This document shows, piece after piece, positions 1,780 to 9,019 of a stretch of 32,465 bases of DNA; position 1 is the first letter of the stretch; every line of letters starts with the position of its first letter. The stretch comes from Bifidobacterium breve (lineage in GTDB: Bacteria > Actinomycetota > Acidimicrobiia > Acidimicrobiales > Ilumatobacteraceae), in assembly GCA_945901725.1 (NCBI GenBank), contig CAMDLK010000016.1:1-32465 (forward strand), written 5' to 3'. Under the pieces are notes generated by a model. It did not search any database. It saw only the letters and a program-made list of their open reading frames with translations, and was not told the origin of the DNA. The position numbers were made by a program, and so were the translations under genes.

Positions 1780-2846
1780 GTGCGACAAATAAGAAGAAAG
1801 CCAATGTGTTCGGTCTCGGACTAATCGGTGGATCACTTGCGCTTGCTCTTGCCGATGCTGGCTACGACGTCGGTGGTCATGACTCAGATAAGTCGAAGAT
1901 TGATACTGCTCTCGAGCGCGAGATTATTGCATTTCCCGGTTTGTATTCCGATGCAGAGGTGACTTTTGTTGCAACTCCTGTGGGGATTCTGGCGGAAGCG
2001 GTAACTGAGTCACTGGCATTAACAACTGGTGTCGTTACCGATGTTGGTTCAGTCAAGACGGCCATCTCTTCGCTGGTGACGGACCCTCGATTTGTCCCTG
2101 GACATCCGATGGCCGGATCTGAACTTGATGGATTAGATGGTGCTGATGCTTCTATGTTCGCTGGAGCCGTGTGGGTGCTTACTCCTACTGCTCATTCCTC
2201 CGATGCTGCTTTCGCTGTTGTCGCTGGCTTGGTAGCAAAGTTCGGCGCAGAAATTGTGGCGATGGACGCGGTGCAGCATGATGATCTTGTTGCAGTTGTT
2301 AGCCATGTTCCGCACCTTGCGGCAGCAACGTTGATGCGCATTGCTGATAATCGATCTGAAGAACACATGGCACTGCTGCGGCTTGCCGCTGGTGGCTTTC
2401 GCGATATGACTCGCATCGCTTCTGGTCGTCCAGGAATTTGGCTTGATATTTGTGAGCAGAACAAAGCATCAATCGTGCGCGGTTTAGATGCACTGATTCT
2501 TGGTCTTACCGATATGCGTGACGTGGTCGCAGGTTCGGACAGAGAAGGTTTGCTGTCGCGACTTGAACAAGCTCGACGGGCGCGCATGAACCTGCCGACG
2601 GGAGCCGGAGCAGTTGAAGATTTGGCTGAAGTACGTATTCCGATTCCTGATCGCCCTGGTGCGGCCGCTGACGTTTTCACATTGTCTGGCGAACTTGGAG
2701 TCAATATTTATGACTTTGAAGTGGTGCATTCAGCTGAAGGTGATCGCGGAATAATGGTGACGGTTGTACGGGCCGAGCATGCGGAAGTCTTTAGGGGCGG
2801 GTTGCTGGCCCGTGGATTTCGTCCGGCTATCCAGCCACTGTCGTGA
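1776..2846 (+). CDS. tyrA: Prephenate/arogenate dehydrogenase with C-terminal ACT domain
   Basis: A 356-residue NAD(P)-dependent dehydrogenase of tyrosine biosynthesis, oxidatively decarboxylating prephenate or arogenate. The Rossmann motif [10 protein letters not shown] is near residue 14, followed by [10 protein letters not shown] and the substrate-site stretch [15 protein letters not shown]. The last 70 residues (from about 285, [14 protein letters not shown]) read as an ACT domain, which suggests amino-acid feedback control. I chose ATG 1776, which overlaps the rluB stop as ATGA; an in-frame GTG at 1770 is the alternative. Its GTGA overlap with aroA places two aromatic amino acid genes in the same transcript. 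Prephenate versus arogenate preference cannot be seen. Confidence 0.92.
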
Positions 2847-4129
2847 CCACGGTCTTACTGCAACCGAATCCTGGGCCAATCGACGCGGTGGTGTCGGTTC
2901 CGGGTTCGAAGAGTGTCGCTAACCGTGCATTGGTGTGTGCGATGTTGTCAAAAGAGGCGTCCCGTATTTCAGGTATTCCAACAGGCGATGATGCTCGTGT
3001 TGTGTTGAATGTAATCAGGGATTCTGGGCGTTCGATCACGAATCTCGGAAATGAAGTCATTATCGGCGAGGCCTCCATTCTTAAGTTTCCAGGCATAGTC
3101 GATGCAGTACTTGCAGGCACTTCCTCTCGATTTCTCACCGCGGTTGCGGCCTTATTTGAAACAACCTCGATTATTGACGGCGAAGAAGTTTTACGAAGTC
3201 GCCCTATGGCTGATCTGCACGACGCTCTAATTTCGTTGGGTGCTGAAATCTCACACCTCGGTGAAGTTGGTCATCTGCCAGTATCTGTATCCAGAGGCTC
3301 GTTGTCTGGCGGCGATATTCACATCGCAGGGAATGTTTCAAGTCAATTCATTTCAGCATTGATGTTGATAGGTCCGATGCTTGATTCTGGACTCGTCGTT
3401 CATGTCGACGGACCCCTTGTTTCTCGTTCCTATGTAGAGATGACAGCGGATGTCATGAGGTCGTTCGGAGCTTCCGTATCGTTTGATGAATCAACCATCA
3501 CTGTGAGCAGTGGTGAATACGGTGGACGAGATTATTTCATTGAACCTGATTATTCATCAGCTGCTTTTCCACTGGTTGCTATTGCCGTTCGTGAAGGTCG
3601 CGTGGTGATTCCTGGTCTAGCAACAGCGTCGTTGCAGGGAGATTCCGAGATCATTTCTATTTTGGAAAACATGGGATTGACATGTGTGGTTATTGACTCG
3701 GATGTGACGGTCTCACGTTCGAAATCGCAGAATGTCTTGCCACTTGTAATGGATATGTCGGATTGTTCGGACCTGGTTCCTGCAGTGGCTGTTGCGTGTT
3801 GCATGGCCACTGGCGAGAGTGTTCTTAGCGGCATTGGTTTTATTCGAAACAAGGAAAGCGACAGGCTCGGAGATCTTGCAAACGAGATAAATCGTGCTGG
3901 TGGAAAAGTGATCGTCGAAGCAGATGGTCTGAGAATTTCTGGTCCATGCACATGGAATTCAGTGATCTTCAATAGTCACCATGATCACCGCATGGCGATG
4001 GCGCTGTCGCTCTTGTCGTTGTGTGCGCCCGGTGTGAAAGTCGCCGATCCTGAGGTAGTAACTAAGAGTTGGCCGTCATTCTTCGCTGACATGGCACCAA
4101 TCCTCGGCACTAATGAGATTGGCAACTAG
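2843..4129 (+). CDS. aroA: 3-phosphoshikimate 1-carboxyvinyltransferase (EPSP synthase)
   Basis: The 428-residue shikimate-pathway enzyme joining phosphoenolpyruvate to shikimate-3-phosphate. Conserved blocks are in order: PGSKSVANRALVCA near the N-terminus, AGTSSRF (the PEP-loop region, where many actinobacteria have AGTVMRF), RSRPMADLHDAL, SSQFISALMLIGPML, PDYSSAAFPLVA, IRNKESDRLGDL and HHDHRMAMALSLL. The start is a GTG overlapping the tyrA stop (GTGA at 2843-2846). In many relatives a CMP kinase gene follows aroA; here it does not. The TAG stop at 4127-4129 is also the first half of a possible promoter element for the next gene. Confidence 0.95.
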   Translation: MTTVLLQPNPGPIDAVVSVPGSKSVANRALVCAMLSKEASRISGIPTGDDARVVLNVIRDSGRSITNLGNEVIIGEASILKFPGIVDAVLAGTSSRFLTAVAALFETTSIIDGEEVLRSRPMADLHDALISLGAEISHLGEVGHLPVSVSRGSLSGGDIHIAGNVSSQFISALMLIGPMLDSGLVVHVDGPLVSRSYVEMTADVMRSFGASVSFDESTITVSSGEYGGRDYFIEPDYSSAAFPLVAIAVREGRVVIPGLATASLQGDSEIISILENMGLTCVVIDSDVTVSRSKSQNVLPLVMDMSDCSDLVPAVAVACCMATGESVLSGIGFIRNKESDRLGDLANEINRAGGKVIVEADGLRISGPCTWNSVIFNSHHDHRMAMALSLLSLCAPGVKVADPEVVTKSWPSFFADMAPILGTNEIGN

Positions 4130-4132
4130 CCT
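4127..4132 (+). promoter_or_regulatory. Possible -10 element (TAGCCT) for the phosphatase gene, overlapping the aroA stop
   Basis: The hexamer TAGCCT begins with the aroA stop codon and ends exactly 6 nt before the ATG at 4139. The same TANNNT-N6-start layout recurs at other non-coupled genes in this window. No -35 hexamer is visible. Chance cannot be excluded for this single site. Confidence 0.35.
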
Positions 4133-4138
4133 GTGTCG

Positions 4139-4762
4139 ATGCATGTAACGGTCGCTGCTTTTGATGTGGACAACACCCTGACCGTGCGCGATTGCGTGGT
4201 TCCTTTTATGAGATCTGCTGCCGGTACTGGCCGTCTTGTAAAGGTAATTCTCTCGAAAGCGGGTGAAACTTTTCAAAGTGTTCGCCGCCGAGATCGAGAC
4301 GCACTCAAAGCTAAATTCGTTGCGGGCATTTTTGCGGGCAAGGACGCTCGCGAAGTTGAGTCGCTTGGAATTCAGTTTGCATCAAAAGTTGCAGACAAGT
4401 GGTTGCGAAGCGACGTTGCCACACGTCTGCGTTGGCATCAAGAACAAGGCCATGTTGTTATTCTCGTGTCGGCGTCATTGGGTGCATACCTGCACCCGTT
4501 AGGTGACCTTCTGGAAGTTGACGCTGTTTTGTGTACTGAACTTGAGGAAAAGGACGGTCTTCTCACCGGCAAGTTGGCGGGCCAAAATTGTCGTGGAAAA
4601 GAGAAGGCTTCACGAGTTCAAAAGTGGTGCCAAGATTCCGGAATAGCGACTGAGGATCTTGTCTATGCATATGGAGATTCGTCAGGAGACACGGAATTGT
4701 TAGAGCTTTTCTCGGAACCAACTTGGGTAAACGATATCGATTTAGTGGCGTTGGTCGCATGA
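4139..4762 (+). CDS. HAD-superfamily (subfamily IB, SerB-like) phosphatase, candidate DPPR phosphatase
   Basis: A 207-residue HAD hydrolase. Motif I is FDVDNTL with nucleophile Asp9 and acid/base Asp11, motif II is the Ser in VILVSAS, motif III is the Lys in GKEKAS and motif IV is GDSSGD, so all catalytic residues are present. Subfamily IB members dephosphorylate small phosphates such as phosphoserine. Here the gene overlaps the DPPR synthase gene by ATGA, and HAD-UbiA pairs or fusions are known in bacteria, so I infer it removes the 5-phosphate of decaprenyl-phosphoryl-5-phosphoribose, a job given to a PAP2-type protein (Rv3807c) in Mycobacterium. Start: ATG 4139 is preferred for the TAGCCT spaced 6 nt away; GTG 4133 is the alternative. 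Confidence 0.8.
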   Translation: MHVTVAAFDVDNTLTVRDCVVPFMRSAAGTGRLVKVILSKAGETFQSVRRRDRDALKAKFVAGIFAGKDAREVESLGIQFASKVADKWLRSDVATRLRWHQEQGHVVILVSASLGAYLHPLGDLLEVDAVLCTELEEKDGLLTGKLAGQNCRGKEKASRVQKWCQDSGIATEDLVYAYGDSSGDTELLELFSEPTWVNDIDLVALVA

Positions 4763-5628
4763 TTGTCGCCTGCATCAAAGAGGCTCGTCCATCACAATGG
4801 ACTAAGAACGTATTGGTCTTTGCCGCACCAGCTGCCCTTGGTGTTCTGAACGAATGGTCGTCATTAGGCAAGACGCTCACTGTTTTTGCAGCCTTCTGTA
4901 TGGTCGCAAGTGGAACGTACTACTGGAACGACATCATGGATGTTGAGCAAGATCGTCAGCATCCAAAGAAGCGCAATCGACCCATTGCAAGTGGCGCTGT
5001 TCCTCTTTCAATGGCTCGGGTTATTGGCTCAGTTCTGCTGATGAGTGGCCCAGCACTCGGTTACGTTGTGCGTCCAGCCGCCGGAGGCATCATTGCGCTG
5101 TATGCCGGTTTGACTATTGGTTACAGCACGTGGTGGAAGCACATACCTTTGCTTGATTTGTCGCTTGTGGCTAGTGGTTTTGTGTTGCGTGCAATGGTTG
5201 GCGCTGCAGCTACTCAAACACCAATGTCTATGTGGTTCGTTTTGTGCATCACTTTCGGCTCTTTTTTCATTGTCACAGGCAAGCGTTTTGCAGAGTTGCT
5301 CGAGCTGGGAGAGCAAGCTGCTGTGACGCGGACCTCACTGAAGTCCTATTCACTTGTGTATCTGCGACAACTACTTGTTGTCTCATGCACGGCGACTGTT
5401 GTGACCTATTGCATGTGGGCGTTTGAGAATGCAGCAATTGCCAATGAAACTATTCCATTCCACGGTTTATCCATTGTCCCTATGGTTCTTGCTCTTTTGC
5501 GTTATTTGTTGGTTTTGGAGAATGGCGGCGGAGGCGCACCGGAAGAAGTGTTCTTTAGTGACCGCTGGATTCAGGCGTATGGCGCGGTGTGGGTTGTCGT
5601 GTATGGGCTTGCCGTATACGCCTCCTAG
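4759..5628 (+). CDS. ubiA: Decaprenyl-phosphate phosphoribosyltransferase (DPPR synthase, UbiA family)
   Basis: A 289-residue polytopic membrane enzyme of the UbiA prenyltransferase superfamily. The aspartate-rich site is NDIMDVEQDRQHPKKRNRP at residues 57-75, matching the NDxxDxxxDxxHPxKxxRP form typical of Mtb Rv3806c rather than the menaquinone or ubiquinone enzymes. About eight or nine hydrophobic helices follow. The predicted reaction moves 5-phosphoribose from PRPP onto polyprenyl phosphate at the cytoplasmic membrane, the first committed step to decaprenyl-phosphoryl-arabinose. The ATG at 4759 overlaps the phosphatase stop (ATGA); an upstream in-frame start at 4723 would give an unnatural N-terminus. 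dprE1 and dprE2 follow. Confidence 0.9.
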   Translation: MIVACIKEARPSQWTKNVLVFAAPAALGVLNEWSSLGKTLTVFAAFCMVASGTYYWNDIMDVEQDRQHPKKRNRPIASGAVPLSMARVIGSVLLMSGPALGYVVRPAAGGIIALYAGLTIGYSTWWKHIPLLDLSLVASGFVLRAMVGAAATQTPMSMWFVLCITFGSFFIVTGKRFAELLELGEQAAVTRTSLKSYSLVYLRQLLVVSCTATVVTYCMWAFENAAIANETIPFHGLSIVPMVLALLRYLLVLENGGGGAPEEVFFSDRWIQAYGAVWVVVYGLAVYAS

Positions 5629-5667
5629 GAGCTTCTGCATTGACCTCTGTTTATTGAGGGCACCGTC

Positions 5668-5673
5668 TAGAAT
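5668..5673 (+). promoter_or_regulatory. Predicted -10 element (TAGAAT) for dprE1, possibly leaderless
   Basis: TAGAAT sits 7 nt before the dprE1 ATG at 5681, so transcription would begin at or next to the start codon. There is no Shine-Dalgarno sequence in between. A TTGACC at 5640-5645 is 22 bp away, too far for a normal -35. Confidence 0.45.
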
Positions 5674-5680
5674 TTGAACC

Positions 5681-7060
5681 ATGGTTATGCAGCGTTTATC
5701 AGGGTGGGGTCGCACTGCTTGGACCGTCGCAGATCTTGTTCACACCACAGAAGTTGATGTCTTTCGCTCCACAATTGGAGCCGCAGGAGAGCGAGGCGTT
5801 ATTTCTCGTGGTCTCGGTCGTTCGTATGGTGCCGCAGCTCAAAATGCAGGTGGAATTGTTCTAGAGATGACTGCCGAAAATGACCCGATGGGCATTGACG
5901 CAGATTTTGACCCTCTGACTGGGCTTCTCACTGTTGCTGCAAGCGTCAGTATCGATGCCATCTTGCGTATGTGCGTCCCGCAAGGTTGGTTTATTCCTGT
6001 TACTCCAGGTACAAGATTTGTCACTGTGGGCGGGGCTATCGCGTCTGATATCCACGGCAAGAATCATCACATCGACGGAAGTTTCGGACAGCATGTTCGC
6101 TCTTTGACGCTGATGTTGTCGAATGGTGAAATTGTTGAACTTTCACCCGACCAAAATCCTGCATGGTTTTGGGCAACAGTTGGCGGGATGGGGCTTACCG
6201 GTGTAGTCCTTCGGGCAACAGTTGCAATGTTGAAGATTGAGTCCTCGCGTGTTGAAGTCGAGACGGTGCGGTTGGAGAATTTCGATGCTGTATGCGCAGC
6301 CATGAGTGCTGACGGCGTTGATGACGACTATCGATATTCAGTGGCTTGGGTAGACCTACTTGCTACGGGGGCTGCAATGGGACGCGGAGTATTGACACGT
6401 GGTGATCATGCCGCCGCGAGCAAAGTAGACAACAAAGAGCCTTTGGCGTACGACCCTCGTTTAACAGTGTCAGCACCAGGTTGGGTGCCTAACGGATTGT
6501 TGAATAAATGGTCGATCAAAGCATTTAATGAAGCCTGGTACCGCAAGGCGCCAGCAAAGAGCCATATTGGTCTTGAGTCGATACCTGCGTTCTTTCATCC
6601 ACTTGATGGTGTGAACAGGTGGAATCGCTTATATGGGAAACAGGGATTCATTCAGTATCAATTCATTGTTCCACTTGATCGCACTGATGTGTTACGCAAA
6701 GTGATTGAGAAATTCTCAGGTGCAGGCGTTGCTTCGTTCCTTGCAGTGTTGAAAAGGATGGGCCCTCAGAATGCCGCACCTATGTCTTTCCCAACGGAAG
6801 GCTGGACATTGACTCTCGACATGGCCGCCGGTATTTCTGGGTTAGCTGAATTGCTGTCAGAGGTTGACTCCCTTGTTTTGGATGCGGGCGGACGTCACTA
6901 CTTGGCGAAGGATTCTCATGTCTCTGCATCAGCAGTACGTAGGGGATATCCACGCATCGACGAGTGGATGAGCACCCAAGAAGAGATGGACCCGATTGGT
7001 TTATGGCGTAGCGATTTGTCGCGCCGTTTGGGACTGGTAGATCACAGGAGATCGTTATGA
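5681..7060 (+). CDS. dprE1: Decaprenylphosphoryl-beta-D-ribose 2'-oxidase (DprE1)
   Basis: A 459-residue FAD-linked oxidase (FAD_binding_4 plus ALO-type C-terminal domain) that oxidises the 2'-hydroxyl of decaprenyl-phosphoryl-ribose. The N-terminal FAD motif GVISRGLGRSYGAAAQNAGG (about residues 39-58) closely matches the Mtb enzyme. The C-terminal half aligns without gaps around PMSFPTEGW, then GGRHYLAKDS with Lys410 matching Mtb Lys418, and YPRIDEW. The position equivalent to Mtb Cys387 is Thr378. The stop overlaps the dprE2 start as ATGA, so the two subunits are coupled. ATG 5681 is the first start of the frame after a 52-base gap; Met3 at 5687 is an alternative. Confidence 0.94.
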   Translation: MVMQRLSGWGRTAWTVADLVHTTEVDVFRSTIGAAGERGVISRGLGRSYGAAAQNAGGIVLEMTAENDPMGIDADFDPLTGLLTVAASVSIDAILRMCVPQGWFIPVTPGTRFVTVGGAIASDIHGKNHHIDGSFGQHVRSLTLMLSNGEIVELSPDQNPAWFWATVGGMGLTGVVLRATVAMLKIESSRVEVETVRLENFDAVCAAMSADGVDDDYRYSVAWVDLLATGAAMGRGVLTRGDHAAASKVDNKEPLAYDPRLTVSAPGWVPNGLLNKWSIKAFNEAWYRKAPAKSHIGLESIPAFFHPLDGVNRWNRLYGKQGFIQYQFIVPLDRTDVLRKVIEKFSGAGVASFLAVLKRMGPQNAAPMSFPTEGWTLTLDMAAGISGLAELLSEVDSLVLDAGGRHYLAKDSHVSASAVRRGYPRIDEWMSTQEEMDPIGLWRSDLSRRLGLVDHRRSL

Positions 7061-7821
7061 AAAATGGTGTAGGTGTTGCGCAGAATATTGTGTTGTTTGG
7101 CGGTACGAGCGAAATTGGACAGGCAATAATTCACAAGTTGGTGAAGCCTGGTGTTTCTCATGTTGTTCTCGTGAGCCGTGATATCGACGCAGCAGATCAA
7201 CAGATTGCTGAGATCGCAGAACGGTACCCAGATCTTGACGTTCACCATGTGCGTTTCAATGCTGATGACTCTGCATCAATGGTGCACGTGGTGGCTGAAG
7301 TTGCTCAACAAGTCGGCGATATCGATGTTGCAGTTATCGCACAAGGATTATTGCAAGAAGGTGTTGACTATTACGCAGACCCGGCAGCCTTGGTGCCCGT
7401 GGCAGATGTGAACTTCACGGGAACCATGGTTCTTATGTACGCCCTTGCGGCTCAGATGCGTTCGCAAGGGTATGGCAAAATGGTTCTGTTGTCTTCTGTC
7501 GCTGGTGAACGAGTCCGTAAAGGAAATCCGGCCTACGGCGCAACGAAGGCTGGTATTGATGGTTTCGCACTAGCTCTTGACCATGAACTCGTTGGATCTG
7601 GTGTTTCAGTGTTGGTCGTACGTCCAGGTTTCGTCACAACCAAGATGACAAAAGGAATGGATAAAGCACCATTCTCTACCGATGCTGAGACGGTAGCTTC
7701 AGCTGTTGGGAAAGCAGTTGGAACGTCAAAAACAGTCATCTGGGTTCCGGGCTTGCTTCAATACATGTTCATGATTTTGAAGAACCTGCCCACTGCTGTG
7801 TGGAGAAGACTTCCTCTTTAA
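7057..7821 (+). CDS. dprE2: Decaprenylphosphoryl-2-keto-ribose reductase (DprE2, SDR family)
   Basis: A 254-residue short-chain dehydrogenase that reduces the 2-keto intermediate to decaprenyl-phosphoryl-arabinose, working with DprE1. The nucleotide-binding motif is the DprE2-type GGTSEIG near residue 15, rather than the common TGxxxGIG. Further matches to Mtb DprE2 are SSVAGERVRKGN, YGATKAG with Tyr160 and Lys164, VLVVRPGFV, and the C-terminal YMFMILKNLPTAVWRRLPL. A ribosome-binding site CAGGAG lies at 7045-7050, 6 nt before the ATG, inside the end of dprE1. The gene ends 4 bases before the converging glycosyltransferase gene. Confidence 0.93.
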   Translation: MKNGVGVAQNIVLFGGTSEIGQAIIHKLVKPGVSHVVLVSRDIDAADQQIAEIAERYPDLDVHHVRFNADDSASMVHVVAEVAQQVGDIDVAVIAQGLLQEGVDYYADPAALVPVADVNFTGTMVLMYALAAQMRSQGYGKMVLLSSVAGERVRKGNPAYGATKAGIDGFALALDHELVGSGVSVLVVRPGFVTTKMTKGMDKAPFSTDAETVASAVGKAVGTSKTVIWVPGLLQYMFMILKNLPTAVWRRLPL

Positions 7822-7825
7822 CTGT

Positions 7826-9019
7826 TTACGGGATGGCGCCTCGAACGCCGTAGATACCCATGACTGTTACTAGTCCACCAACCATGACAACAACTACTAG
7901 TGGCCACCACTTGTCCTCATCGTCACGCAAAGCACGCGCTACGGGGAAAAACAGTGGGAATGCTGTGAACAAAAAACGTGGTCGCGCTGTGACGGTCGCA
8001 GGTATCAGCATGAGTGCCAACACAACTGCGGTGTACGACCAATAGATCAGATTCATCTTGTACTTCCGAGCCATGTACAGGGCAATCAGCATGGCACCCA
8101 CACTTGCCGCTGTGAGAACAGAAGTTGGTGAACTGACTGGATGAATGAAGAAATCTATGGTGCGTTGTACGGCTGTGGCCCCGAAACTTGTTCCTTCTTG
8201 CCAAGCTTCGCGTTGTACGCGAAACCAAGCCGTGTTCTCTCCGGTGTGCATGCGTAGGAACCACATGAAACCGATGAAGCCGAGCGGTGAGAGAGCTGGA
8301 GCAATTAGCGATTTCCAGTCTCTGTCGTTACGAATAGCCAGTAAAGAGGCCACTGCACACGCTGCAACCAAAGCAACACCGTTGGGTCGCGTAGCTGTAG
8401 CCATGGCGGCAAGGATTCCTGCCCAAAGCCAGTGCTTGTCACGAAGAGCAATGAAGCACAGCGCGACAATAGTGAGCATGAGCGCTTCAGAATAAGCCAT
8501 GCTGAGCACGAAACTGCCGGGAAACAATGCAATAAGAATCATCGCCTTCTCGGCTGTCTTTATGTCGAAAAGCCCGCGGCATAAATAGCCAGCAAGGAAT
8601 ACAAAACATGCGCCGAGAATGATGTTGACTGCGAGCGCCATACTGACGGGGCCACCAGGAACAAGTACATCGATGTAGTGAACAAATCTTGGGTACATGG
8701 GAAAGAATGCTGCGCGAGCATCGGAAACGAAGTAGGTCACATTGGGCATGATGTGATGGGGGTAACCCTCGCGTACGACATCGAGGTACCAGTGGCCGTC
8801 CCAACTAGCAAGAATGTCGGCTAGTCCACTGAGACCGTTGGTCGGTTCCACGTCATTTGAGCGGTCAACAACTGCTTGTGCGGCGACTGCGATTGCTGCA
8901 CCCATGATGACGAACAATCGTGACAACAGGTAAACGATTCCTGCTCTACGAAGTGTCCGACCCCACGGATCAGAGGCGGGGGGGATATGTAGTCGGCGGG
9001 TGAGTGAAGTGATTGTCAT
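7826..9019 (-). CDS. PIG-V-like polytopic membrane glycosyltransferase
   Basis: A 397-residue protein with about nine or ten hydrophobic helices. It carries features of the PIG-V/GPI mannosyltransferase 2 family (GT-C fold, using polyprenyl-phosphate sugars): an extracytoplasmic loop with WDGHWYLDVVREGYP at about residue 73, then AFFPMYP, then FPGSFVLSMAYSEAL, and ATRPNG after the next helix. The Asp in WDGHWY is the likely catalytic acid. Because it lies next to the arabinose-donor pathway, it may use decaprenyl-phosphoryl-arabinose or -mannose, but it is convergent, not in that operon, so this is only a guess. An AGGA site lies 4 nt before the ATG. The stop is 4 bases from the dprE2 stop. 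Confidence 0.75.
   Translation of the reverse strand: MTITSLTRRLHIPPASDPWGRTLRRAGIVYLLSRLFVIMGAAIAVAAQAVVDRSNDVEPTNGLSGLADILASWDGHWYLDVVREGYPHHIMPNVTYFVSDARAAFFPMYPRFVHYIDVLVPGGPVSMALAVNIILGACFVFLAGYLCRGLFDIKTAEKAMILIALFPGSFVLSMAYSEALMLTIVALCFIALRDKHWLWAGILAAMATATRPNGVALVAACAVASLLAIRNDRDWKSLIAPALSPLGFIGFMWFLRMHTGENTAWFRVQREAWQEGTSFGATAVQRTIDFFIHPVSSPTSVLTAASVGAMLIALYMARKYKMNLIYWSYTAVVLALMLIPATVTARPRFLFTAFPLFFPVARALRDDEDKWWPLVVVVMVGGLVTVMGIYGVRGAIP

Follow-up and report, generated by a model that had tools for sequence, protein, structure and literature searches.

The window, the 32,465-nucleotide contig CAMDLK010000016.1 of assembly GCA_945901725.1 (class Acidimicrobiia, family Ilumatobacteraceae), carries a four-gene module at positions 4139-7821 that probably makes polyprenyl-phosphoryl-beta-D-arabinofuranose, the 5'-dephosphorylation being the task of a small phosphatase of the HAD-IB subfamily encoded by its first gene. 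Among the steps of this pathway, a drug target in mycobacteria, the one taken by the phosphatase is the least certain. The original prediction had named the HAD protein a good candidate for the phosphatase acting after the synthase of decaprenyl-phosphoryl-5-phosphoribose (DPPR). This proposal gains weight from the distribution of the HAD across genomes, from its linkage on either side of the module, from the exclusion of PAP2 and from HAD-UbiA combinations in other phyla. The module comprises the following features:

4139-4762, plus strand: HAD-IB phosphatase, 207 aa from ATG (alternative start GTG 4133), proposed polyprenyl-phosphoryl-5-phosphoribose 5'-phosphatase
4759-4762, plus strand: ATGA overlap read from the sequence, UbiA start ATG 4759-4761 and HAD stop TGA 4760-4762
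4759-5628, plus strand: decaprenyl-phosphate phosphoribosyltransferase (DPPR synthase, UbiA family), 289 aa, assigned by NF008978
5681-7060, plus strand: dprE1, decaprenylphosphoryl-ribose 2'-oxidase, 459 aa, assigned by NF053785
7057-7060, plus strand: ATGA overlap read from the sequence, DprE2 start ATG 7057-7059 and DprE1 stop TGA 7058-7060
7057-7821, plus strand: dprE2, decaprenylphospho-erythro-pentofuranosid-2-ulose reductase, 254 aa, assigned by NF053786

Reading frames and family models place all four genes in this order on one strand, contiguous as predicted, and the ATGA couplings announced for two of the three junctions are found at HAD/UbiA and DprE1/DprE2. UbiA and DprE1 are separated by 52 nt, and a TAGAAT lies 7 nt 5' of the DprE1 ATG, where a leaderless promoter is possible; a scan of 3900-8000 for a sigma-70-like consensus returned 1 site against 3.4 expected and none at this TAGAAT. 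On the other side, aroA (encoding 5-enolpyruvylshikimate-3-phosphate synthase, 2843-4129) stops 9 nt 5' of the HAD ATG and is itself preceded by scpB, a pseudouridine synthase gene and a prephenate dehydrogenase gene. Since the aroA junction is equally tight, contiguity alone leaves the tie between the HAD and the arabinose genes ambiguous, and it is other genomes that supply it.

In the proposed pathway, UbiA would transfer ribose-5-phosphate from phosphoribosyl pyrophosphate (PRPP) to polyprenyl phosphate at the inner membrane face. The soluble HAD-IB enzyme would then strip the 5'-phosphate through the aspartyl-phosphate intermediate of HAD enzymes, with D9 presumably the nucleophile and D11 presumably the acid/base, as is usual in the family. 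DprE1 would oxidise C2 with FAD, and DprE2 would reduce it with NAD(P)H under inversion to give the arabinose donor. After flipping, this donor would serve a GT-C enzyme that is probably neither Emb nor AftA nor GT87. The HAD would stand in for the Rv3807c-type PAP2 found beside UbiA in Mycobacteriales and in the family f54. The predicted UbiA, DprE1 and DprE2 steps are assigned by family membership above curated cut-offs, and the HAD appears to be the polyprenyl-phosphoryl-5-phosphoribose 5'-phosphatase on the basis of genome comparison and of the activity that was published for a HAD domain in a fusion protein, on a lipid substrate of the same kind.

UbiA scores 324.6 bits against NF008978 (cut-off 207), DprE1 558.4 bits against NF053785 (cut-off 500) and DprE2, narrowly, 254.8 bits against NF053786 (cut-off 250), so that all three lie above the NCBIfam equivalog cut-offs for enzymes of this pathway. 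Together with the genome comparison, these scores support the full route from PRPP to polyprenyl-phosphoryl-arabinose that had been predicted. Built from 16 homologues, a UbiA profile reaches 339.5 bits against the solved enzyme 8j8j; DprE1 matches the DprE1 structure 4aut (E=1.8e-116), and DprE2 matches its counterpart chain in 21gq (E=4.1e-50). In the homologue alignment of UbiA, N57-D58-D61-D65 and R176 are invariant and E179 nearly so; these N-D-x2-D-x3-D and R-x2-E motifs are spaced like the residues mutated by Kelly et al. (PMC11127046).

The HAD passes Pfam PF12710 (124.3 bits, cut-off 27), TIGR01490 for the HAD-IB subfamily (147.6 bits, cut-off 98.3) and TIGR01488 (103.7 bits, cut-off 45). 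HAD enzymes carry the motifs DxD-T, S, K and D, and D9, D11, T13, S111, K156 and D184 are invariant in the alignment of 24 homologues. An AlphaFold2 model computed from this alignment (mean predicted local distance difference test score 95) has the HAD-IB fold, and its nearest structures are 3fvv of B. pertussis, which is uncharacterised (TM 0.80), and SerB2. The earlier description of the protein as SerB-like is accordingly apt for the fold and fails for the family: against the SerB equivalog TIGR00338 the HAD reaches 44.9 bits where 144.15 are needed. The two histidinol-phosphatase equivalogs are missed as widely (69 bits, cut-off 280; 42.6 bits, cut-off 400), and both identities were rejected.

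The class sample consisted of 148 genomes, 65 of them DprE1-positive at E <= 1e-30 (61 above the family cut-off; G107 has a broken gene and G128 reaches only 307 bits). A profile built from 24 linked HADs matched 58 of the 148 genomes at E <= 1e-25. Their scores fall into two groups with a clear gap, 51 genomes above 160 bits, which we call strong, and 7 at 91-94 bits. A strong HAD is present in 49 of the 65 DprE1-positive genomes and in 2 of the 83 DprE1-negative ones (Fisher p = 1.3e-22, kinship uncorrected). The genome searches scored the best 10-22 candidates per genome, misses being possible, and all counts are uncorrected for phylogeny. Two members of the window's family without DprE1, G008 and G039, are also without the HAD, and G031, from the genus of G008, has both. 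This pattern and the co-occurrence indicate the behaviour of a pathway-specific enzyme, not of a housekeeping one.

Counting the window, the surroundings of the DprE1 matches amount to 66 loci in 65 genomes. In 33 of these loci a HAD is encoded nearby on the same strand, 10 times before UbiA and 23 times after DprE2, and the other 33 are without it; this linkage is more than chance. The survey of HAD-UbiA adjacency and fusion near dprE1 that the original prediction had proposed thus turned up linked HADs in half of the class loci, besides fusions and neighbours in other phyla. As aroA is found in none of the 23 loci with the HAD after DprE2, the HAD tracks the arabinose genes and not aroA across families. 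In 16 further DprE1-positive genomes the HAD lies off the locus, 11 of these in one family. In the other five, the HAD of G087 and G095 (L184, L185) is on another contig, at distances of about 0.9 and 1.4 kb from a DprE2, that of G122 (L183) forms a pair with UbiA, that of G028 (L182) sits at a contig end and that of G010 (L181) stands alone.

A set of 80 named loci was collected by UbiA alignment; 6 of these repeat records of the class set, and among the duplicate records are L086 = L115 and L091 = L123 (class and named loci) and L106 = L036. The HAD occurs in 18 of the 80, an Rv3807c-type PAP2 near UbiA in 16, both in none and neither in 46, the PAP2 loci coming from Mycobacteriales, Pseudonocardia, Haloechinothrix and Actinotalea. 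In a tree of 78 HADs, whose bootstrap had not settled, the class operon HADs, the unlinked HADs and one Prevotella HAD on a long branch form a group (95/74, not firm) separate from nine paralogous HAD-IB proteins (96/83). Within the tree, the window's family has HADs that cluster with those of Ilumatobacter and of Ilumatobacteraceae metagenome-assembled genomes. Three fused HAD domains (L200, L201, L204) fall outside the class group (100/99), in a comparison that did not include the Citrobacter sequence of Kelly et al.

For PAP2 we built an Rv3807c-type profile from 9 loci (Mycobacteriales neighbours) and applied it at E <= 1e-30 to a phylum sample of 296 genomes, 44 of them DprE1-positive at E <= 1e-60. 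As to the DISPLACEMENT of PAP2, these 44 genomes comprise 15 with the HAD, 15 with the Rv3807c-type PAP2, 14 with neither and 0 with both; among the DprE1-negative genomes, PAP2 was found in two and a 113-bit HAD in two. That a non-homologous enzyme of known chemistry is linked to this synthase and epimerase, and never accompanies PAP2 among the sampled genomes of the phylum, independently supports both the existence of a dedicated phosphatase at this step and the role of PAP2 in it in Mycobacteriales. Among the frames of the window and the 65 other class loci no Rv3807c-type PAP2 was found at E <= 1e-3, and a regular-expression search for PAP2 motifs gave no match. The best PAP2 of the class scores 61.7 bits against the profile, compared with 119.9-326 for PAP2 proteins linked to UbiA. 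In the family f54 (7-10 Mb genomes, perhaps Streptomyces) the three loci read (L198, L222, L223) likewise cluster UbiA, DprE1 and DprE2 with a phosphatase gene, but there it is a PAP2 (119.9 to 143.5 bits) whose frame overlaps that of UbiA and which is divergent from DprE1/E2.

A PAP2 homologue with this role elsewhere in the genome had been named beforehand as the finding that would speak against the HAD, and it was looked for. The window's own genome has three PAP2 matches, one of them below the family cut-off; the best, and the only one found by the Rv3807c-type profile, scores 60.3 bits and lies on another contig (C12, 22399-22812), flanked on one side by an alpha/beta hydrolase and on the other by a wax ester synthase/diacylglycerol acyltransferase (WS/DGAT). 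In 19 other PAP2 loci the hydrolase recurs 13 times and the acyltransferase 8 times. With the acyltransferase next to it, the PAP2 protein is more plausibly a lipid phosphatase and less probably the DPPR phosphatase, and the recurrent neighbours would suit a phosphatidate phosphatase.

HAD chemistry for this step is already on record, a point that the original prediction does not mention. In Kelly et al. 2024 (PMC11127046), ORF15 of Citrobacter, which unites a HAD domain and UbiA in one protein, yields farnesyl-phosphoryl-ribose in membranes, and the D18A exchange in its HAD domain leads to accumulation of lipid-linked ribose-5-phosphate in vitro. The m/z values given there are 513 for the farnesyl-linked ribose-5-phosphate and 435 for the form without the 5'-phosphate. 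The same paper calls the mycobacterial phosphatase unrelated and describes a Pseudomonas syringae protein with a C-terminal HAD-type (PRP) domain. This prior art limits novelty; the addition here is a predicted HAD of the arabinose branch that is unfused, occurs class-wide and excludes PAP2, and among the literature matches listed no paper deals with such a separate HAD for arabinose in this class. ORF15 of Citrobacter youngae O1 likewise joins a HAD phosphatase to a UbiA-type synthase, but the two are fused there and the product is ribose, whereas the window has separate genes together with DprE1/E2.

The mycobacterial pathway to decaprenyl-phosphoryl-arabinose (Rv3806c as UbiA, Rv3807c as putative PAP2, DprE1 Rv3790, DprE2 Rv3791) shares the synthase family, the epimerase pair and the expected order of reactions with the window. 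It differs in that the phosphatase of the window is HAD-IB and not PAP2, that the window's genes stand in one 3.7-kb run and that its genome has no Emb, AftA_N or GT87 match. Papers on the mycobacterial pathway term the phosphatase 'putative' (PMC7502851, PMC4213368) or 'prime candidate' (PMC3229680), and one of these three papers reports that an attempt to delete the PAP2 homologue of C. glutamicum failed, which favours PAP2 there. Outside Actinomycetota, the rhizobial noeCHOP operon is likewise compact and, according to PMC5080398, encodes homologues of the DPPR synthase and DprE1/E2 for an arabinose donor. The rhizobial donor, however, goes to Nod factors, and noeN is a proposed, unproven phosphatase in that text. 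On the Agrobacterium pusense/IRBG74 plasmid (L199) UbiA and the DprE1 homologue are separated by an additional gene (6846-7268), which belongs not to HAD but to the GtrA family (147.6 bits, cut-off 50); if this gene is noeN, it is more likely a flippase than a phosphatase.

Searching plasmids with the UbiA protein brought up 99 records, 14 of which were opened. HAD is fused to UbiA in 3 of the 14 (L200, L201, L204; Pfam), and a HAD-IB gene follows 3' of UbiA in 2 (Lactococcus L202, Prevotella L207). In 1 of the 14 (L208) the gene next to UbiA is a divergent PAP2 (DUF212). Three haloarchaeal plasmids have a PHP-domain gene directly 3' of UbiA (L203 5922-6602, L210 5890-6570 and L211 5870-6508; Pfam on L203 only), possibly a PHP-type version of the same phosphatase step. 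L209 is a UbiA record with an N-terminal domain of no assigned family, and beside UbiA in L199, L205, L206 and L212 no phosphatase was seen (L212 with our own profiles only). Phosphatases of different families are thus found next to one and the same synthase.

Several observations weigh against a dedicated HAD phosphatase. The HAD might be a housekeeping phosphatase of the aroA/tyrA neighbourhood, acting on phosphoserine, histidinol-phosphate or the like and adjacent by accident, with a PAP2 elsewhere taking the DPPR step. In most loci read from the window's family aroA does adjoin the HAD; it stands at the HAD side in the window and in 7 of the other 9 class loci with the HAD before UbiA, and in 10 of the 18 HAD-linked named loci, which are all 10 of the 'before' type. 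The SerB-like fold and the PAP2 matches of the window's own genome fit this explanation too. Weak PAP2 matches (35-62 bits) are moreover commoner among DprE1-positive genomes of the class (45 of 65 against 17 of 83), as are those of at least 50 bits (23 of 65 against 3 of 83), and two draft genomes, G004 and G021, have the HAD without a DprE1 match and with no UbiA in the stretches read. Yet the HAD falls far below the SerB and histidinol-phosphatase cut-offs, the genome holds four further HAD-IB matches, two of them above the cut-off, and 15 genomes positive for both DprE1 and HAD have no such PAP2 match at E <= 1e-8. We rejected the HAD as an aroA partner in view of the 23 'after' loci without aroA and of G008 and G039, which belong to the window's family and have neither DprE1 nor the HAD; with the recurrent lipid-gene neighbours of PAP2 and the rarity of the HAD where DprE1 is missing, we regard the housekeeping explanation as distinctly unlikely.

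The HAD might also be only a helper, unspecific phosphatases or spontaneous loss sharing the DPPR step. No strong HAD was found in 16 of the 65 DprE1-positive class genomes (G014, G134, G023, G035, G083, G145, G059, G110, G114, G006, G015, G056, G040, G060, G064 and G128). None of these has an Rv3807c-type PAP2 above 62 bits, their matches being weak at most (none to 61.7 bits), and some other phosphatase can therefore presumably do the step there; in the phylum sample, too, the genomes with neither enzyme point the same way. Neighbour clustering at the loci without HAD and PAP2 gave no candidate for a linked alternative phosphatase; many frames there look like shadow frames, and in one family the neighbours resemble, by eye, what we take to be uvrB and coaE. 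The asparagine that replaces D180 in 3 of the 24 HAD homologues adds to the doubt. According to PMC11127046, the fused HAD retained part of its activity in vitro after the D18A exchange, and the mutant continued to make side chains in vivo; deletion of rhizobial noeN lowered arabinosylation without abolishing it (PMC5080398). The tight association of HAD with DprE1 and the operon coupling nevertheless suggest a dedicated role, and we consider a mere helper unlikely.

The end product could finally be ribose or another pentofuranose, with DprE1 and DprE2 homologues of other specificity. HAD accompanies UbiA with no DprE1/E2 match in the stretch in Lactococcus L202, Prevotella L207 and Rhodovulum L200, and a related system makes xylose through another epimerase, as PMC11127046 states. 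Against this stand the equivalog scores of DprE1 and, by a narrow pass, of DprE2, and we hold a different product to be highly improbable. A point against the main reading lies in the transferase. The search for arabinosyltransferases proposed with the original prediction was run on the window's genome, 87% complete, and yielded no match to Emb (PF04602), AftA_N (PF12250) or GT87 (PF09594); AftB and AftD were not searched.

If the HAD is the dedicated phosphatase of an arabinose pathway, as we think probable, the module points to arabinose-containing surface glycans in a lineage where the window's genome gave no match to those three families, and the HAD offers a small soluble enzyme usable for in-vitro reconstitution. 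A broader view, to which we give slightly less than an even chance, is that the 5'-dephosphorylation in polyprenyl-phosphoryl-pentose synthesis marks a hot spot where one enzyme takes the place of another, unrelated phosphatases (separate or fused HAD-IB, PAP2, divergent PAP2/DUF212, and PHP in haloarchaea) having been recruited next to one synthase, and that the class with the dedicated HAD feeds an undescribed non-Emb, non-mycolate arabinan or arabinosylated surface glycan. Emb PF04602 was found in 3 genomes out of the 148 of the class. Two of the three have no DprE1 match; these, G026 (C7) and G125 (C23), with PF04602 matches of 44-104 bits, may draw on an arabinose source other than DprE1 or use a different sugar.

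The convergent neighbour of the module (7826-9019, minus strand) encodes a GT-C-like protein of the PIG-V mannosyltransferase family (24 bits, cut-off 22.4). We considered it as the arabinosyltransferase and set it aside as possible but unsupported, since a search among the class loci matched only the protein itself.

At residue 378 the window's DprE1 has Thr in the column that we take to be the cysteine bound by benzothiazinones; 4aut has Cys there by alignment. Among 123 DprE1 sequences (the window and 122 other loci) this column holds Ala or Thr in 118, Ser in 3 and Cys in 2, and with Ala or Thr covalent benzothiazinones should not bind these enzymes in that way.

Between UbiA and DprE1, nine relatives carry a Methyltransf_24-type gene that is not present in the window: L036 (7667-8407), assigned by Pfam, with equivalents in L039, L041, L042, L098, L102, L104, L107 and L108 assigned by tblastn at 61-66% identity. 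L054 and L100 have other genes in this gap. In the haloarchaeal plasmids the PHP gene is followed by a lysylphosphatidylglycerol-synthase-like membrane protein, and a DolP-mannose mannosyltransferase lies nearby on the opposite strand. Three records titled Bifidobacterium breve (L105, L116, L122) have loci near the window's class, and the HAD of L105 falls in the group of the window's family; these titles look wrong.

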